Shown one piece after another: positions 3,412 to 24,135 of a DNA stretch of 33,589 nucleotides. Origin of the DNA: Acidobacteriota bacterium (lineage in GTDB: Bacteria > Acidobacteriota > Terriglobia > Acidiferrales > UBA7541); contig JAKASX010000037.1 of NCBI GenBank assembly GCA_021818865.1, forward strand, positions 1 to 33,589. The letters run 5' to 3'. The notes under the pieces are model-generated. The model saw nothing but the letters and a program-made list of their open reading frames with translations. It was not told where the DNA came from and ran no database searches. The position numbers and the translations under genes were made by a program. Numbering within the stretch: position 1 is the stretch's first letter; each line of letters begins with the position of its first letter.

Positions 3412-3542
3412 CCCGCCACGCCGCAAAATCCCCGGGAAAGCTACAATAATCGCATCGCTGGCTTTCGAATCGCGCGGCCAGGCGTCAATTGCCGCCCGCG
3501 CGCTTTGCGCCGGCTTTCCGCTCCGCACCGGAGGAGTGGCTC

Positions 3543-3944
3543 GTGGCTGAACTGACGGTGCTCTTCGATGGCGAATGCGCGCTCTGCCGCGCCAGCGCCG
3601 AGCGTGTGCGCCGCCTCGACCGCCTCCGCCGCATCGAGCTGCTCGACCTTCACGATCCCTCCGTCTCAGCCAGGTTCCCGCAAGTGGACCGTGAACGCGC
3701 CCTGCGCCTCATGCAAGCCGTCGACTCTTCCGGCCGCGTTTCGAGCGGCGTCGACGCCTGGGCCGAAATCGCGCGTCGCGTCCCGGCCTGGCGCCCCGCC
3801 GCCGCGCTACTGCGCGTTCCGGGAATCCACGCCGTCGCGGAATGCGTTTACGCGTGGGTCGCGCGCAATCGTTATCGCTGGAATCGCCAGGTCTGCGCCG
3901 ATGGTTCCTGCTCCTTCCACGGCCAGTCGCCGAGCCGTCGCTGA
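3543..3944 (+). CDS. DCC-family (DUF393) thiol-disulfide oxidoreductase
   Basis: This is a small 133-residue protein of the DCC/DUF393 family, related to B. subtilis YuxK. Its defining motif is VLFDGECALC, with Asp9 and the Cys12-x2-Cys15 pair near the N-terminus, followed by the ARFPQVD and RVSSGVDAW segments normal for the family. The family is predicted to do thiol-disulfide chemistry, but substrates are not established. The start is taken as GTG at 3543 because a strong GGAGGAG lies at 3530-3536 with 6-base spacing and the domain begins two residues later. An in-frame ATG at 3489 has no such site. The next gene, 39 bp downstream, is a polytopic membrane protein of the LMF family. DCC proteins are often linked to the related HTTM membrane family, which suggests the pair acts together. 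Confidence 0.85.
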   Translation: MAELTVLFDGECALCRASAERVRRLDRLRRIELLDLHDPSVSARFPQVDRERALRLMQAVDSSGRVSSGVDAWAEIARRVPAWRPAAALLRVPGIHAVAECVYAWVARNRYRWNRQVCADGSCSFHGQSPSRR

Positions 3945-17388: not shown

Positions 17389-17456
17389 AGGCCCGTAGCT
17401 CAGTTGGTTAGAGCGTCCCGGCCCGCCGGGAAGGTCTGACGGTTCGAGCGGCACCA
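17389..17456 (+). pseudogene. Broken tRNA-Val copy (unit A)
   Basis: The first 27 bases match the intact tRNA-Val at 17467 exactly (acceptor 5' strand, D-arm). Where the 17-base anticodon arm should be, there is a 16-base palindrome at 17416-17431. Then AGGTCTGACGGTTCGA resembles the variable and T-arm region with one extra G, but the 3' end (GCGGCACCA) does not pair with the acceptor 5' strand. It cannot fold as a tRNA. It sits first behind the putative promoter. Confidence 0.8.
17416..17431. repeat. 16-bp palindrome replacing the anticodon arm of unit A
   Basis: TCCCGGCCCGCCGGGA has 7-bp arms around a CC centre. The same arms, TCCCGGC/GCCGGGA, occur with a TT centre at 17810-17825, in the same position of another tRNA-like unit. 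A related one is at 17845-17860. Confidence 0.8.
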
Positions 17457-17466
17457 AATGTTCGCC

Positions 17467-17543
17467 AGGCCCGTAGCTCAGTTGGTTAGAGCGCTACCTT
17501 GACACGGTAGAGGTCTACGGTTCGAATCCGTACGGGCCTACCA
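17467..17543 (+). tRNA. tRNA-Val (anticodon GAC)
   Basis: The 77-base gene folds completely: acceptor AGGCCCG with CGGGCCT, D-arm GCTC/GAGC, anticodon stem CTACC/GGTAG around the loop TTGACAC (anticodon GAC, reading GUC), a five-base variable region, T-stem TACGG/CCGTA with loop TTCGAAT, discriminator A and an encoded CCA. It is the only one of three related copies that can fold. A T5 run follows at once, as part of ATTTTTCAAAAAT at 17543-17555, and may end its transcript. Confidence 0.95.
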
Positions 17544-17553
17544 TTTTTCAAAA

Positions 17554-17805
17554 ATGCCTTTCCTCTACATCCTCCAAAGCCAATCCTCGGGCCGTTACTA
17601 CATCGGCTCGACCACCGACCTCGCTCGCCGCATCTCCGAACACCATCGCGATCACACCCCCTCCACACGCAATCGCGGTCCGTGGTCTCTCGTTTATCAG
17701 GAAGAATTTCGCACGTTACCCGAGGCCCGCCGCCGCGAACTGCAAATCAAGAGTTGGAAATCCCATCGGACGATCTCGGAACTGGTGAACGGCAACTCGG
17801 CTTAG
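17554..17805 (+). CDS. GIY-YIG nuclease-family protein
   Basis: The 83-residue protein is a stand-alone GIY-YIG domain of the YhbQ/UvrC-N type. The motif reads Y5-I-L and Y16-I-G. Arg25/Arg26 and His30 follow, and Glu62 in RRRELQIKSWK is the metal-binding catalytic position. GPWSLVYQEEF is the usual central strand. Such domains nick or cut DNA and occur in homing endonucleases and repair proteins. Oddly, the ATG lies 10 bases after the CCA end of tRNA-Val, with no Shine-Dalgarno sequence and inside a small A/T palindrome. Its TAG stop falls in the D-arm-like start of the next tRNA fragment (TTAG at 17802-17805). A decayed second copy follows at 17889. Confidence 0.85.
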   Translation: MPFLYILQSQSSGRYYIGSTTDLARRISEHHRDHTPSTRNRGPWSLVYQEEFRTLPEARRRELQIKSWKSHRTISELVNGNSA

Positions 17806-17809
17806 CGCG

Positions 17810-17825
17810 TCCCGGCTTGCCGGGA
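17810..17825. repeat. 16-bp palindrome replacing the anticodon arm of unit C
   Basis: TCCCGGCTTGCCGGGA, 7-bp arms with a TT centre. It differs from the unit A palindrome only in the central dinucleotide. Confidence 0.8.
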
Positions 17826-17844
17826 AGGTCTACGGTTCGACCTG

Positions 17845-17860
17845 CCCCGACTCGTCGGGG
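17845..17860. repeat. 16-bp palindrome inserted in the T-loop of unit C
   Basis: CCCCGACTCGTCGGGG, 7-bp arms with a TC centre. With the other two it fits one pattern: pyrimidine-CCCG-purine-C, two bases, G-pyrimidine-CGGG-purine. It is the core of a 21-base block absent from the intact tRNA. Confidence 0.8.
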
Positions 17861-17888
17861 GATCCGTACAGGCCTACCACTCACACCC

Positions 17889-17985
17889 ATGGCCTTCGTC
17901 TACATCTTGCAGAGCCAGTCCAGTTGTCGTTGCTACATCCGTTCGACCACCGATTTTCACCGCCCCGCGAACTTCAAATCAAAAC
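17889..17985 (+). pseudogene. Decayed GIY-YIG copy
   Basis: The start MAFVYILQSQSSCRCYIRSTTD parallels the intact gene (MPFLYILQSQSSGRYYIGSTTD), but YIG has become YIR. The central region between STTD and the catalytic-helix segment is deleted. The remaining CGCGAACTTCAAATC (the RELQI equivalent) is in another frame and ends in TGA. It begins 10 bases after the ACCA of unit C, the same spacing as in unit B. A non-homologous open frame continues to 18056. Confidence 0.75.
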
Positions 17986-18503: not shown

Positions 18504-20267
18504 CTATCTCAAGTCCATGGACAGCAAAACCGGCTCGGCTTCATCGGCGAACACGATCTGGTCGCCGCTCCGGTCCCGCATCTTCGCCAGGTACGCCAAG
18601 CCGGTCCAGGACGCCGCGAGCAGTGCGACCAGGACGAGAAACGGAACAGGACCCGCCACTTCAAGCGCCCAGTGCTCGAGCCGTGCCAGGCCGTAACAAA
18701 ACAGGACAGAGGCCAACAGATAGACGGCCAACGTGACGCCGAGGTTGTGTTTCGGCCCTGCGTACGAAGATGTGAAAGGGATCTTCGCATAATCAACCAG
18801 CAGGGCCTCGCAGAGGACCAGCGAAGCAAGCAACACAAAAGTTGCCACGGCAACCCCAATCCGGGCGCCCCAGCCCGCCGCGTAAACGACCAGGGAAATG
18901 ATCGCGATGGGCGCAACCAATGCCTGCATCAGCTTCCTCGCCACGCGGCGCGCTGCTCCCGCTCGCGCCCTCACGGCCATTCGGAAAGTCCAGTTGGCCG
19001 GCAACTCGGCCGGCAGAACGAAAACGAACCGCATGCCGGTAGCTAGGAAAAATAGGATTGCGAGCGGGGCCGCCAGCAGCGCTGAAGGCGGCGTAGAAAG
19101 CGACGCATTTGCCACCGAACCCCGGGAGGCTGCTGCGTCTTGTAGAGCGACGGCCATGCCTAATCCGGCAAAACCTGCCATCAGCAAGCGGTGCCTCCGG
19201 TTCCTCAAAAGTGTGCTCATTCCGAAATGGAAGCAGGCTCGGTCAAACGGACGATTGAGAGCGAATCGGTCGAACCAACGCACGACAAACGTCAACATCC
19301 TTCCCGGTTCCTTTGCTCCGGGCTCCTCAGAGTCGCGAATCCGGCGTACACATCGTCGGTAACTCGCCAAGTAGAGCGCCAGCGATGCGCCACCGACGGC
19401 AAAGAGCGCCGTAACCGCGCGCACAGCCAATGTGTGCGTCGCCGGAGTCGCACCGCCTAGCATGTCCTGGTAGAGACCGAGGAACCATACAGTGGGAAGC
19501 CACCCGAGCACGGCATGACCTCCGGCTGTCACTTGCGGCAAAAGCGCTTCGACCTCCGGCGTCGCGAAGAGCACCAGCACCAAGGCAACCGTTGCGATGA
19601 GCTGGAATGCAAATGAAATCGGTCGAAATCCACGCCCAGGCACCACGAGCGTCAGCAGACCAACCAGACCGAAGACGCCGAAAAAAGCCAAGAACCCCGC
19701 TGCCGCAGTTGCCGTCATGTGCGTTAGCATCATCCGGACGAGCGGGCCAAGGTTCGGTTGATTGCCCTCCACTTGCAGCGGAAAAAGAGCGCCTGAGCCC
19801 AGATTTAAAGCCACGACAACCAACGTGAAAAAAAGCGTCAGCGCGGTCAGCTTCGCCAAAAACATCCGTCCCATGCCCACCGGCAGCGGAGCAAGGTTTG
19901 CGTGGTCCAGCCGGTCGGGAAAAAGTCGGTCCCAAATGACGACGGCCACCAGTCCCGTGACCGTCGTCGTATACGCGACAAGCATGTACTTGTCCGGAAT
20001 GGAAAAGGTCTTGTAGTCAACGGGAGGAAGGCGCTCCAGCCAGCGAATCAGGCTTGAATATTTGGGGGTCAGCAGAATGGAAACGAACGCGCCCGGCAAA
20101 GCAAGCAGCGCAAGGATCACTCCCATCCCGAGCCGCAGATCGCTGTGCTCCGCAGTCAATTCACCCGTAAAGAAGCGCGTCAAGAAGTGGGAGACCAGAC
20201 ACACGAAGACGCCTTCGCGAAACCCCGTTCGCGGCCCGGCCGCGACTCTGCGCCAAGACTTTCTCAT
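18504..20267 (-). CDS. ABC exporter permease-like membrane protein
   Basis: This 587-residue, highly hydrophobic protein has roughly a dozen membrane spans in two halves, joined by a charged cytoplasmic stretch around residues 305-345. I do not recognise a named family, but its position directly after an ATP-binding subunit and its layout fit an ABC-2-like permease with both halves in one chain. Its ATG overlaps the ATPase stop as TGATG (20265-20269), and no Shine-Dalgarno sequence precedes it, so translation is probably coupled. The substrate is unknown. By eye the sequence is less GC-rich than the surrounding genes. Confidence 0.72.
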
Positions 20268-21031
20268 CAAGCTTTCGCTAATTCGACGATACCCTTTGCC
20301 GTCTGCTCGGAGTCCGGCTGCTTGGTGAGTTCCACGAAGAGTCGTTCGAGCGATGGCGCGGCCATAAGTTGACGCAAGTGCTGAACCGAATCGTATGCGA
20401 CAACCCGGCCGCCTTGGAGAATCATCACCCGTGAGCAGACTTTTTCTACCACCTCAAGCACGTGCGAAGAGTAGAGAACCACTTTCCCAGCACGGGCCAG
20501 CGCTTGCATCAAATCTCGGAACACGAGCGCGGAGTTGGGATCGAGCCCGGAGAGCGGCTCGTCGAAAATGAGTACATCCGGATTATGGAGCAGCGCCGCG
20601 ATGACCAGAATTTTTTGCCGCATTCCCTTTGAGTACGTGCCCAGCGCGGAATGGCGTTGCCCGTGCAGGCCAAACGCATCAAGCATTTGGGCTATTTTTT
20701 TACCCAGCGCTGGCTCAGGCAGTTGGCGCAGCGAACCAACGAGTTGCAAATACTCGATCCCGCTGAGATACGGGTAGAGGTTCGGCTCTTCGGGAACGTA
20801 GCCCAGCCGGCTCTTGTATCCGACCAGGTCCTTCGAAGTTCGCTGGCCATCCAGCAAAATTTCTCCCCGCGTGGGTTCCAGAAGCCCGGCCACCATTCGC
20901 ATGGTTGTGCTTTTTCCCGAGCCGTTTGGCCCCAAGCAGCCGAGGATTTCGCCTCGCTTCGCGTGGAAAGAAACGTCGCTGACACAACGCAAGCAGCCGT
21001 AGTACTTGGTTAACCTTTTCGCTTCGAGCAT
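20267..21031 (-). CDS. ABC transporter ATP-binding protein
   Basis: The 254-residue nucleotide-binding domain has Walker A GPNGSGKST (34-42), a signature loop written YSKGMRQK (133-140, in place of the usual LSGGQ) and Walker B VLIFDEP (153-159) followed by SGLDP. The divergent signature and the CcmA-like layout are typical of exporters of the ABC-2/NatA type. A short C-terminal extension (SLERLFVELTKQ) follows the core. The start has GGGAGGAGG just upstream of the ATG at 21031. The permease gene overlaps its stop by one base, so the two form a single transport unit. It lies 137 bp downstream of the ADOP permease on the same strand. Confidence 0.93.
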   Translation of the reverse strand: MLEAKRLTKYYGCLRCVSDVSFHAKRGEILGCLGPNGSGKSTTMRMVAGLLEPTRGEILLDGQRTSKDLVGYKSRLGYVPEEPNLYPYLSGIEYLQLVGSLRQLPEPALGKKIAQMLDAFGLHGQRHSALGTYSKGMRQKILVIAALLHNPDVLIFDEPLSGLDPNSALVFRDLMQALARAGKVVLYSSHVLEVVEKVCSRVMILQGGRVVAYDSVQHLRQLMAAPSLERLFVELTKQPDSEQTAKGIVELAKA

Positions 21032-21168: not shown

Positions 21169-24135
21169 TCATTCCTCCCGCAGCGCCGTCACCGGGTCCA
21201 CGCGCGTCGCTCTTCGTGCCGGAATGTAGCAGGCGGCCAGCGAGACGAGCATCAGGAGACCGGCGGCCAAAGCCATGGTCGTGGGGTCGTCGGCGTGCAC
21301 GCCGTAGAGCACAGAGTCGAGATAGCGCGTCACGCCCAAGGCCATGCCGATTCCTAGCGCTGCTCCGACGATCGCCAGTGCGGCGCCCTGCCGCAGGATC
21401 AGCCACACCACGTTTTCCGGCTGCGCGCCGATTGCCATGCGGATTCCGATTTCGTGCGTTCTCTGCGAAATCTCGTAAGAGAGAAGACCGTAGAGTCCAA
21501 TGCTTGCGAGCGCAATGGCCAGAAGGCCGAAAAAGCTCGCGAGGCCCGCCAGCAGTCGCTCCCGAAAGAGCAGTTGGTCGATCTGCCGAGATTCCGTAGT
21601 CACATCGGAAAGGGCGATATCCGGGTCCACTTTGGCTACGATCTTACGCACTGCTGGCATCATCGATCGCGGATCGGTCTCGGTGCGCAACTCGAAAAAA
21701 AAGCGGCGGAACGACGGTTCATAAATTAACGGACGAATCCTCTGTCGCGGACCAAACAATCTCGCGTCGCCCACCACCCCGGTGATCTCGTAGCCGGGGC
21801 TGGCCGGCCTGCGTACGGTCGGCCCGTGCTCGTCGAATCTGATCCCCAGCGGGTCCTCCTTCCCGACGAATCGTTCGACGAACTTCCGATTCACGATCAC
21901 CGGAATTGGCCTTTGGGAGGGTTTTGCACTCTGGTCTCCGGCAGCAAGCTCGAAATCGGTGGCCTTGAAGAGCCGCCCTGCGAGCAAGGGAATGCGCATG
22001 GTTGAAAAGAAATTGGAACCAACCTTCAACTCGTCCGCTTCGGATCGCTCGTCCGTCGGCGTCCCCGGCCAGTGGAAGAGAGTCGAGCGAGAGGCACCCG
22101 TTAGCAGCGGAAACCATGTGTTGCTTGCGGATTGCACGCCAGGCATTTCGGCCAGGCGACGCTCCAGTTCTTGGCTGAGGGTCTCTTGGCGCTTTGCGCT
22201 AAGCGACGGCGGCGTCCAAACAGCGAAACTCAGGACGTGGTGAGTGTCGAACCCGAGGTCGACGTCGCGTAGGTTCGCGAGCGTGCGCACCAGCAGCCCG
22301 GCACCCGCGGTCACGACGACCGCCATCGCCACCTGCCCCATCACGAGCCCGTTCCCGAGCGTGAGCCAACTCCCCCCGGAGTGACCGGAATTTGTCGCAC
22401 CCCGCGCCCCCTGCTTGAGCGCTGGCGTCAAGTCGACCCGAGCGTTCCGAAACGCCGGGGCCACACCGAAAAGGATTCCAACGAGCAGCGAAATCGCGAG
22501 GGTGAATCCCAGGATGCGCGGGTCAATTGCCGTGAATTCCAAGATGCGAAGATGAATCGGGCCCGGGGATCCGACAGTTTGTACCTTAGCGCTCCCGACA
22601 AAGGAAACAATCGCGTGTGCGCCCGCGTAGGCGAAAAGAACTCCCAAGGCCCCGCCAAACAGCGAAACCGTCACACTCTCAGTCAAAAGTTGACGCACCA
22701 CCCGAGACCGCCCGGCACCCAGCGCCAGACGCACTGCTATCTCCTTTTGCCGAGCATTCGCCCGCGCCAGCAGCAATCCCGCCACGTTTGCGCAGGCAAT
22801 TAAAAGGACGAGTCCAACGGCGAACATCAGGACGTACAACGTGTTTGCGTACAGCCCCCGGTAACCCATCAGGCCGGTTTGAGCGGGTGTTATCGTTACC
22901 TCCGGCTCGCCGCCCGAAGATACCGGGGCGCGAGAGCCGCTTGACGGAACGCGCCCCGACTCGGCGTCGGCGAATAACGGGGCCGCTCCATGAAGCATTT
23001 GGCGGTGCAAGAGACCGTTCACGGCGACTTGCGCTTGAGCGCGTCGCTCTCCCGGCCTCAGCCTGCCTATAATCGTTAGCCACCAGGCACGCGCGTCGTC
23101 CCGCTGGCCCGGCCTGCCTTCGGCCCGCATATAGCTGGAAAGAGAGAGCCATAGGCCGACATTCGAGCCCGGCGTGAGCCCCGCAAAACCAGTCTCGGCA
23201 ACGCCGACAACCGTAAGAGGAAACCCCTGCAATTCGATCGTGCGGCCAATGGCACTGCGAGAGCCGCCGAACGCGCTTTGCCAATAGCCGTAGCTCAAGA
23301 CGGCAACGGGCGCCGCGGACGGAGTGTCATCGGCAGGCTCTATCAAACGCCCAGCGGCCGCTTTGACGCCCATCACATGGAAAAAACTGCCAGAGACTGC
23401 TTCCGCATCGACCGTAGTCTCAGAACCAATTCCCGACAAATACCTCGCGCGCAGATCGGCAAAAGCGCTAGCCCCGGAAAATACCTTTGCTCGCTCGATC
23501 TCATGGAAGAGAGGCTCGGAAAACGAGCACGCCGTGTAAACGTCGCTTTCGATATGGCCTTGGGGGCCGGGACCAAAGCCCTCCATATAGCAGGAACCAT
23601 AAAACATTAGGGAGTGGACGTTTGGTATGTATCGCGCGCTCGTTCTCCACCCCAGCAGAACCAACCGCGAGGGATTTTTCGCCGGCAGCGGCCGCAGCAT
23701 CACTGCGTCGATAACGGAGAAGACCGCGGCGTTGGCGCCAATGCCGAGGGCTATCGTCAAAATGGCCGCAGCGGCGAAGCCGCGACTCTTTGCCAGCAGC
23801 TTCATGCCATAGAAAAAGTCGCGCCAGACGCCGGCGAACAGGCCAAGCATTCCAGTCCGAGCCGCGCGGCGCTCGGCGGCGCGTTCGATCAGCCGGTCGA
23901 GCGCAGGCATTCGTCCCGTCGGCGACTCGCGCAGCTCCGCAGCCAAGGCATCCCAATCCGTTATGTGCTCGGCCGCGTCAGCTTGAGCCTGTTTCTCGTC
24001 GAGGCCTCGCCCCAGCGCATCTTCGTAAGCGTCCTCAAGTTGCCGCGCGACCTCCTCGACGATTTCCCCTTCGCGTTCCGGCCGCAGTTCGCCGAGCTGT
24101 AGCCGTTCGCGAACGTAAGCGGGCCAGTCAGGCAC
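21169..24135 (-). CDS. ADOP-family duplicated ABC permease (MacB/FtsX type)
   Basis: The 988-residue protein has an N-terminal permease-prefix domain (about 1-90, Glu/Ala-rich helices) and two MacB-periplasmic/FtsX repeats. The first membrane span is near 119-142 (GFAAAAILTIALGIGANAAVFSVIDAV, the ADOP hallmark). The first FtsX part contains FAVGLVLLIACANVAGLLLARA...RQKEIAVRLALGAGRSR, and the C-terminal copy contains IGLYGLLSYEISQRTHEIGIRMAIGA and ends IPARRATRVDPVTALREE. These duplicated orphan permeases are strongly expanded in Acidobacteriota and usually lack an adjacent ATPase. Here an ATPase gene does lie downstream, but it has its own permease. The start is GTG at 24133-24135, with GAGG upstream. 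A promoter with an operator-like repeat precedes it. Confidence 0.93.
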   Translation of the reverse strand: MPDWPAYVRERLQLGELRPEREGEIVEEVARQLEDAYEDALGRGLDEKQAQADAAEHITDWDALAAELRESPTGRMPALDRLIERAAERRAARTGMLGLFAGVWRDFFYGMKLLAKSRGFAAAAILTIALGIGANAAVFSVIDAVMLRPLPAKNPSRLVLLGWRTSARYIPNVHSLMFYGSCYMEGFGPGPQGHIESDVYTACSFSEPLFHEIERAKVFSGASAFADLRARYLSGIGSETTVDAEAVSGSFFHVMGVKAAAGRLIEPADDTPSAAPVAVLSYGYWQSAFGGSRSAIGRTIELQGFPLTVVGVAETGFAGLTPGSNVGLWLSLSSYMRAEGRPGQRDDARAWWLTIIGRLRPGERRAQAQVAVNGLLHRQMLHGAAPLFADAESGRVPSSGSRAPVSSGGEPEVTITPAQTGLMGYRGLYANTLYVLMFAVGLVLLIACANVAGLLLARANARQKEIAVRLALGAGRSRVVRQLLTESVTVSLFGGALGVLFAYAGAHAIVSFVGSAKVQTVGSPGPIHLRILEFTAIDPRILGFTLAISLLVGILFGVAPAFRNARVDLTPALKQGARGATNSGHSGGSWLTLGNGLVMGQVAMAVVVTAGAGLLVRTLANLRDVDLGFDTHHVLSFAVWTPPSLSAKRQETLSQELERRLAEMPGVQSASNTWFPLLTGASRSTLFHWPGTPTDERSEADELKVGSNFFSTMRIPLLAGRLFKATDFELAAGDQSAKPSQRPIPVIVNRKFVERFVGKEDPLGIRFDEHGPTVRRPASPGYEITGVVGDARLFGPRQRIRPLIYEPSFRRFFFELRTETDPRSMMPAVRKIVAKVDPDIALSDVTTESRQIDQLLFRERLLAGLASFFGLLAIALASIGLYGLLSYEISQRTHEIGIRMAIGAQPENVVWLILRQGAALAIVGAALGIGMALGVTRYLDSVLYGVHADDPTTMALAAGLLMLVSLAACYIPARRATRVDPVTALREE

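Follow-up and report, generated by a model that had tools for sequence, protein, structure and literature searches.

A tRNA gene followed closely by a small nuclease gene, and then by a broken copy of the same tRNA gene, raises the question of whether the three belong together and, if they do, which of them moves. This arrangement is found in the window analysed here, a stretch of DNA of 33,589 nucleotides that makes up an entire contig (C7) of an acidobacterial MAG of 3.97 Mb with a completeness of 95% (G000 in the following), whose named relatives belong to Terriglobia/Acidobacteria. The original prediction described three tRNA-Val units, each with a GIY-YIG frame behind it, and proposed that tRNA and nuclease are repeated together as a composite element that targets a tRNA gene.

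Anatomy of the tRNA-Val locus

All parts of the locus lie on the forward strand. Its centre is an intact tRNA-Val (GAC) gene with an encoded CCA end (17467-17543), which was called by ARAGORN and matches Rfam family RF00005 with 72.1 bits. This tRNA is the presumed target of the element and its left neighbour, and should remain functional in this position. No second tRNA-Val(GAC) was found among the 44 tRNAs analysed in the source genome.

The outline of three units holds, although A and C are not tRNAs but pseudo-tRNAs that bear a hairpin. Unit A (17389-17456), upstream of the intact tRNA, is a degenerate copy in which the first 27 nucleotides are identical to those of tRNA-Val (the 5' match between units A and B is 29/29), the perfect hairpin TCCCGGCCCGCCGGGA (17416-17431) stands in for the anticodon arm, and the T arm is decayed. 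The vestigial GIY-YIG frame assigned to this unit consists only of ATGTTCGCC (17458-17466, the 9 nucleotides from the ATG), 1 nucleotide past the ACCA, and is too short to serve as evidence.

In unit B, a 10-nucleotide spacer (17544-17553) separates the CCA end of the tRNA from the start codon of an intact GIY-YIG gene (17554-17805), which encodes an 83-residue, UPF0213/SLX1-like nuclease with the conserved residues of the family. The stop codon of the gene (TAG, 17803-17805) is supplied by TAGCGCG (17803-17809), the D-arm remnant of the downstream pseudo-tRNA, and the gene and the pseudo-tRNA are thus fused. The remnant is followed by the perfect hairpin TCCCGGCTTGCCGGGA (17810-17825), which takes the place of the anticodon arm and forms the right end of the element, and then by the right copy of the tRNA-Val 3' half (17826-17879), which is the pseudo-tRNA of unit C. 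Unit C lacks the 5' half of the tRNA, and its 3' half is broken by a second palindrome, CCCCGACTCGTCGGGG (17845-17860), inserted in the T loop. The 3' half of the intact tRNA (AGGTC...CCA, 17511-17543) would be the left copy of the flanking direct repeat, if the locus is read like the tRNA-Ile and tRNA-Ala sites described below, where empty sites define repeats of 45 bp and 41 bp.

The ACCA of unit C ends at 17879 and is followed, after a 9-nucleotide spacer, by a GIY-YIG start at 17889. This second copy (17889-17985) is decayed, as predicted: its start is conserved and it is 77% identical to unit B over 65 nucleotides, after which it suffers an internal deletion and degenerates. Both readable frames had been placed 10 bases after the ACCA, which is correct for unit B but is one nucleotide too many for unit C.

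The window locus is described here as one copy of an element accompanied by decayed copies. The element is about 261-266 bp long and consists of a GIY-YIG ORF of about 80 codons with a hairpin at its end. The order at a filled site is tRNA, GIY-YIG gene, D-arm remnant with hairpin, tRNA 3' half and native flank. The hairpin in place of the anticodon arm, which the original prediction did not describe, is the most constant feature of the system. Hairpins are not enriched within the window itself. Of the reverse-strand ORFs downstream of the locus (18504-20270 and 21169-24135), the first is long and has no Pfam match at 1e-6 and the second encodes a MacB/FtsX-type permease; these are ordinary chromosomal surroundings. 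Neither an integrase nor a transposase was found among the window ORFs tested, as the prediction had stated.

The nuclease

The intact ORF was correctly recognized as a GIY-YIG gene: the protein matches PF01541 with 56.4 bits against a cut-off of 22.6 (E 3.8e-15). Its Pfam matches are limited to GIY-YIG and T5orf172, and there is no DDE or HUH transposase among them. A comparison of 20 diverse members shows Y5, Y16, G18, R26, E62 and K66 to be invariant and H30 to be nearly so. The closest solved relatives are UPF0213 proteins and SLX1 (PDB 1zg2, 1ywl, 7cq4), with I-TevI further off, and the predicted AlphaFold structure (pLDDT 85) has UPF0213 1zg2 as its best PDB match. Phage homing endonucleases give weak profile matches. 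There is no separate DNA-binding domain beyond the approximately 80 residues. The dN/dS values of close pairs range from 0.06 to 0.39, and the nuclease is under purifying selection. In a PADLOC search the window protein was unmatched to known defence families, and two of 20 relatives matched PDC-S14 weakly.

Other loci in the same genome

When the whole genome is searched at the protein level, only two further full-length homologues are found, besides the decayed copy and a fourth, weak match. The two are located behind tRNA-Ile(GAT) and tRNA-Arg(ACG), and in both cases the nuclease is followed by another copy of that tRNA, whose anticodon arm has a hairpin. All three intact GIY-YIG loci of the genome (Val, Ile and Arg) thus follow one plan, and its recurrence at the two other loci and in other phyla, together with the 29/29 match of units A and B, places the three-unit arrangement beyond chance. 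Four more of the 44 tRNA genes, Arg-TCT, Pro-TGG, Cys-GCA and Ser-TGA, have palindromes and a partial copy of their 3' part behind them but no nuclease; these are likely remnants.

Further sequences of note lie near such loci. A stretch of about 450 bp (L002, reverse strand, ~1842-2295; G000:C91) just downstream of the tRNA-Ile element is missing in G003, a genome of the same genus. It holds a different, distant GIY-YIG frame at 3483-3680 and is possibly another type of GIY-YIG-bearing insertion. In L034 and L003, one repeated sequence resembling an IS end (TGTCCAGCCCGGAGACATGGGTAACAG...) begins within about 10 nucleotides of the CCA, in one case behind tRNA-Ala and in the other behind the pseudo-tRNA of tRNA-Arg.

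Association with tRNA genes across the family

Nuclease homologues, often several per genome, are carried by 40 of 61 related genomes. Their linkage to tRNA genes was assessed at 156 places, comprising the homologues in the 61 relatives and 80 loci of a collection-wide scan, with some overlap between the two. The scan used a profile of the closer homologue set, as the profile built from 20 diverse members was too varied. The loci were picked by the protein alone and not by the proximity of a tRNA, and the sample is centred on this subfamily. An intact tRNA is present on the same strand within 150 nucleotides upstream at 98 places, and a tRNA lies just downstream at a further 19. The predicted linkage is thereby borne out in homologues, 117 of the 156 places being tRNA-linked, while the chance of a same-strand upstream tRNA is about 0.1% (44 x 150 / 2 / 3.97 Mb). 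The partial tRNA copy expected downstream was likewise found, since in most tRNA-linked loci a pseudo-tRNA of the same tRNA lies 3' of the nuclease.

The tRNA-linked loci span at least 12 phyla and about 14 isotypes. The hosts include Acidobacteriota, Bacteroidota, Verrucomicrobiota, Lentisphaerota, Thermodesulfobacteriota, Nitrospirota, Methylomirabilota, Armatimonadota, Fidelibacterota, Ignavibacteriota, Chlorobiota and Rhodothermota. The linkage is seen in isolates (Pedobacter, Pontibacter) as well as in MAGs, so it does not stem from misassembly. A UPF0213-like side clade (L064, L065, L100, L104) and a homologue on a Sinorhizobium plasmid (pSymB, L249) have no tRNA nearby and serve as a built-in negative control for the linkage.

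A search of 50,697 phage records gave no homologue of the nuclease. Plasmids gave weak matches only, and the one plasmid locus examined had no tRNA linkage; the idea that the element is phage- or plasmid-borne was rejected on these grounds. Two IMG/VR contigs (L187, L188) carry a relative, and in L187 a tRNA-Ala lies 30 nucleotides upstream on the opposite strand. In five loci from Bacteroidota and relatives (L129, L131, L117, L147, L186) the tRNA and the nuclease gene have a terminator-like sequence between them, so that the gene is probably not co-transcribed with the tRNA in those loci. In several of the five the terminator-like sequence belongs to the repeated segment.

The relation between nuclease lineage and tRNA identity was examined on a maximum-likelihood tree of 144 nucleases. 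The isotype changes 30 times on this tree, compared with a mean of 78.8 when the isotype labels are shuffled, and none of 200 shuffles gave a value as low. With near-duplicates removed there are 29 changes against a shuffled mean of 70.8. Paralogues of one genome group with homologues located at the same tRNA in other genera. This pattern shows long-term fidelity to a tRNA and not movement as such, because vertical inheritance at each tRNA would produce the same tree. For a few elements the position in the tree suggests that the target has changed; the Pro element of Chlorobiota (L186), for instance, would on its position within the Asn clade have switched tRNA.

The hairpin and the second 3' half

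The hairpin was evaluated at 55 loci in which the downstream tRNA 3' half could be anchored without using the hairpin itself. A perfect stem of at least 5 bp abuts the 3' half in 50 of them, against 5.4% of control positions, and a perfect stem of at least 6 bp in 46, against 1.9%. In most Val, Ile, Ala and Pro loci, exactly nucleotides 27-43, the whole anticodon arm, are replaced, and the right junction of the Val/Ile/Ala type is the 3' foot of the anticodon stem. The Arg, Asn and Lys loci have other fixed junction points; the junctions are sharp and set by lineage. The sequence of the stem varies between loci while its pairing stays perfect. The stop codon of the GIY-YIG gene lies inside the hairpin, or no more than 12 nucleotides before it, in 35 of 57 loci. 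The decayed copy in L038 has kept its hairpin, and its T arm has degenerated. From these observations we infer that the hairpin is a functional end of the element.

The second tRNA 3' half follows the local tRNA closely. In 38 of 39 loci, no differing tRNA of the same anticodon from another genome matches it as well as the tRNA of its own genome does; the flank past the CCA, unlike this 3' half, is often unrelated. Either the second half is made afresh from the local tRNA, or the two repeats are kept alike by recombination. The pseudo-tRNA also holds the D-arm sequence of the local tRNA and, in the Arg, Asn and Lys cases, a full or nearly full 5' half. Thus, a simple insertion with target duplication does not account for the pseudo-tRNA.

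Palindromes of the TCCCG...CGGGA type are also dispersed over the source genome, where 146 are found against 30 in a reversed-pattern control, an excess of about five-fold; in relatives the numbers reach 502 against 54 (G004). Within the family, this excess correlates with the number of GIY-YIG copies (rho 0.66, p 9e-6, without a correction for phylogeny). The possibility that the hairpins are mere dispersed REP-like palindromes was rejected, as the stems in pseudo-tRNAs also include the GGCCGA, TCCGCC and GTCGCC types, and TCCCG palindromes are enriched in genomes without the nuclease as well.

Empty and filled sites

Two reciprocal pairs of sites define the ends of the element. The tRNA-Ile site is filled in the source genome and empty in G003. 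The flanks align at 90.4% over about 1.5 kb upstream and at 89.8% over 948 bp further downstream. The insert of 266 bp (AG-ATG...GIY...hairpin) lies between exact 45-bp repeats, each composed of tRNA nucleotides 45-77 and 12 nucleotides of flank. At tRNA-Ala the situation is reversed, with G003 filled and the source genome empty: the upstream flanks are 89.7% identical over 1.58 kb, and the native flank resumes past the second repeat (91.8% over a match of 98 bp). Here 261 bp are inserted, from the ATG to the hairpin TCCCGGTAACGACCGGGA, between exact 41-bp repeats made of tRNA nucleotides 44-76 and 8 further nucleotides. Positions were counted along each gene, and as the tRNA-Ile is 1 nucleotide longer, both repeats have a common starting point at the 3' foot of the anticodon stem.

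Both inserts contain only the GIY-YIG ORF and the hairpin, with no integrase. The idea that tRNA and nuclease move as a tandem unit is therefore not supported, as the inserted segment is the ORF with its hairpin. The proposal that the element targets a tRNA gene and leaves it working agrees with the linkage in homologues, the downstream fragment and the empty sites alike. Each of the two pairs could represent a precise loss by recombination between the repeats instead of a gain. At the tRNA-Val of G007 the nuclease is deleted and the second 3' half is kept, and the flank after this half resembles that found directly after tRNA-Val in G008 and G004.

Possible turnover at the tRNA-Val locus

Within the family the nuclease is patchily distributed. 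At the orthologous Val locus, recognized by the same DegQ-like protease upstream, the source genome and G003 carry one nuclease lineage, G001 carries none, and G002 carries another lineage with another hairpin (GGCCGA type, as opposed to the TCCCGGC type of the source genome). Monophyly of the genus at this locus was rejected in three of four tests (p-AU 0.019-0.023), the fourth giving 0.109. The clade tested was named after the tree had been seen and the gene has about 80 codons, and the result is suggestive only.

The tRNA-Val of G004 is occupied by a tyrosine recombinase island (L103:11156-12451, G004:C82). Nuclease fragments with 3' pieces of tRNA-Val are found several kb away, on the far side of the island. 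The junctions of the element differ from those of the island (tRNA nucleotides 26-77 and 33-77 in G004), which was set aside as a separate event.

Possible mechanism of insertion

The explanation that we consider probable is that the locus belongs to a family of minimal mobile elements which insert site-specifically at tRNA genes, with the GIY-YIG nuclease acting at the anticodon arm and at the hairpin that mimics it. The data show the anatomy, the linkage to tRNA genes across the family, the fidelity of nuclease lineages to a tRNA, the presence or absence at orthologous sites with flanking repeats, and the selection on the nuclease; the course of events outlined next is inference. The nuclease would recognize the anticodon arm of the cognate tRNA gene, extruded as a cruciform or present as a single-stranded hairpin, and would nick or cut the DNA at the 3' foot of this arm. 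SLX1 is a structure-specific nuclease. The hairpin at the right end of the element might mimic the anticodon-arm target, so that the same enzyme recognizes both. Repair or recombination across the tRNA 3' half would then install the element. Subsequent recombination through the 3' half might keep the repeats homogenized and could also remove the element cleanly. The intact neighbouring tRNA still holds the presumed target, which leaves the self-immunity of the element unexplained.

A wider claim may be entertained more tentatively, namely that an autonomous element of about 265 bp, present in at least 12 phyla, encodes a structure-specific GIY-YIG nuclease which recognizes the anticodon-arm hairpin shape of a tRNA gene, ends in a mimic of that shape, spares the tRNA by duplicating its 3' half, and thereby represents a new class of transposition. 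Its standing is possible, but somewhat short of an even chance.

Alternative explanations

The main rival is plain intronless homing. A free-standing homing endonuclease gene would cut tRNA alleles that lack the element and be copied by break repair, the repeat and the hairpin being by-products that restore the tRNA and shield the right side from being cut. The GIY-YIG family and the weak profile matches to phage homing endonucleases fit this explanation, as does the position of the gene at its presumed target, fixed behind the cognate tRNA, with a nuclease tree that tracks isotype; a homing cycle would also agree with the patchy distribution, the decay and the replacement. We know of no free-standing homing gene, however, with long repeats flanking the target or a hairpin that mimics a tRNA, and the flanking direct repeats of 41-45 bp together with such a hairpin speak against homing. 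The carrier moreover keeps an intact tRNA beside the gene, so that the presumed recognition site is not interrupted, and the protein has no DNA-binding domain of its own outside its 80 or so residues. Homing is thus regarded as unlikely, even though a precedent for the location exists in phage T4, whose SegB is described as a GIY-YIG homing endonuclease situated between tRNA genes (PMC2988022). An old tandem duplication of the tRNA, with the nuclease as a passenger that is inherited vertically and repeatedly lost through the repeats, would need no mobility at all. Recombination between direct repeats would yield exactly the empty sites observed, the pseudo-tRNAs hold D-arm or full 5'-half sequence, and the arrangement of the Arg locus is common to the source genome and G003. 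Yet one duplication cannot give recurring junctions at about 14 isotypes in at least 12 phyla, two lineages of nuclease and hairpin occur at one orthologous locus within one genus, and the same pair of tRNA and GIY-YIG gene is found in unrelated genomic surroundings across genera, which together make this history rather improbable.

It is still less probable that the system operates at the level of RNA, with the nuclease acting on its cognate tRNA, or with the pseudo-tRNA as an RNA decoy or antitoxin, in a toxin-antitoxin or tRNA-surveillance role for which linkage would simply mean co-transcription. The nuclease lineage does track tRNA identity, the pseudo-tRNA resembles a tRNA that cannot be cut, and its tRNA part stays like the local tRNA where the flank past the CCA often differs. 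Most Val, Ile and Ala pseudo-tRNAs, however, are without a 5' half and thus unable to adopt a tRNA fold; pseudo-tRNAs are seen to decay (L038), and some of them have outlasted their nuclease; a terminator-like sequence separates the tRNA from the nuclease gene in Pedobacter; and the GIY-YIG enzymes known to us act on DNA. The last explanation, that the loci are shrunken remnants of integrase-borne genomic islands that use tRNA attachment sites, scarcely deserves credence. An intact tRNA together with a partial copy of its 3' part is also what ordinary islands leave behind, and an island with a tyrosine recombinase does occupy tRNA-Val in G004. But the content of the loci is always the same nuclease and hairpin without an integrase, their junctions are unlike those of that island, and the empty and filled pairs, where the whole insert is 261-266 bp, contradict such an origin.

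Relation to known systems

The element thus favoured, a GIY-YIG gene with its hairpin inserted at a tRNA gene, shares traits with several known systems, of which T4 SegB and the group I intron endonucleases of anticodon regions come closest. SegB targets a tRNA intergenic region of phage T4, and the free-standing GIY-YIG genes of T4-like phages are likewise small, patchily inherited nuclease genes beside tRNA genes with a presumed DNA target in or near these genes (PMC2988022). SegB differs in being a phage gene, and the sections of that source available here describe neither direct repeats of a tRNA 3' half nor a hairpin that mimics a tRNA (PMC2988022). Group I introns with homing endonucleases occur in the anticodon regions of tRNAs, and GIY-YIG nucleases are typical of such introns (PMC3984707); the site of insertion is alike, but here the tRNA is rebuilt at the DNA level and uninterrupted. 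Rfam gave no group I intron match in the window, where the tRNA was the only family found, and the tRNA is continuous according to ARAGORN. Islands and prophages with tyrosine integrases are likewise bordered by an intact tRNA at one end and by a partial 3' copy of it at the other, and differ from the present ~265-bp insert, which has no integrase and carries a hairpin for the anticodon arm. REP/RAYT systems and REPINs (PMC2817692, PMC3116915) similarly tie palindromes to one small nuclease or transposase gene, and dispersed TCCCG palindromes are a further likeness, but their enzyme is an HUH tyrosine enzyme and not a GIY-YIG nuclease, and the linked hairpins described here are in pseudo-tRNAs. 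UPF0213 and SLX1 have the same fold and are the nearest solved structures, whereas the UPF0213-like relatives checked (L064, L065, L100, L104 and L249 of pSymB) are not beside tRNA genes.

The element is filed under no known class, because it lacks at least one of the features that define homing genes, tRNA-integrating elements, introns and insertion sequences, respectively. A full-text literature search, with most subscription papers and all bioRxiv preprints outside its coverage, returned no description of such an element, and the ~265-bp element is apparently undescribed. Because one species has it at a given tRNA gene where a close relative lacks it, the element is a strong candidate for one of the smallest mobile elements that carry a gene.

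If this explanation is true, the family would be among the smallest protein-coding mobile elements, and a nuclease alone, with neither transposase nor integrase, would suffice for site-specific insertion into a target that is both safe and universal. It would account for many of the tRNA 3' fragments and stand-alone GIY-YIG genes found by tRNA genes, and would provide a source of small nucleases with apparently distinct specificities for tRNA genes. How a GIY-YIG protein of 80 residues chooses its target, by sequence or by the shape of a hairpin, would become directly testable.
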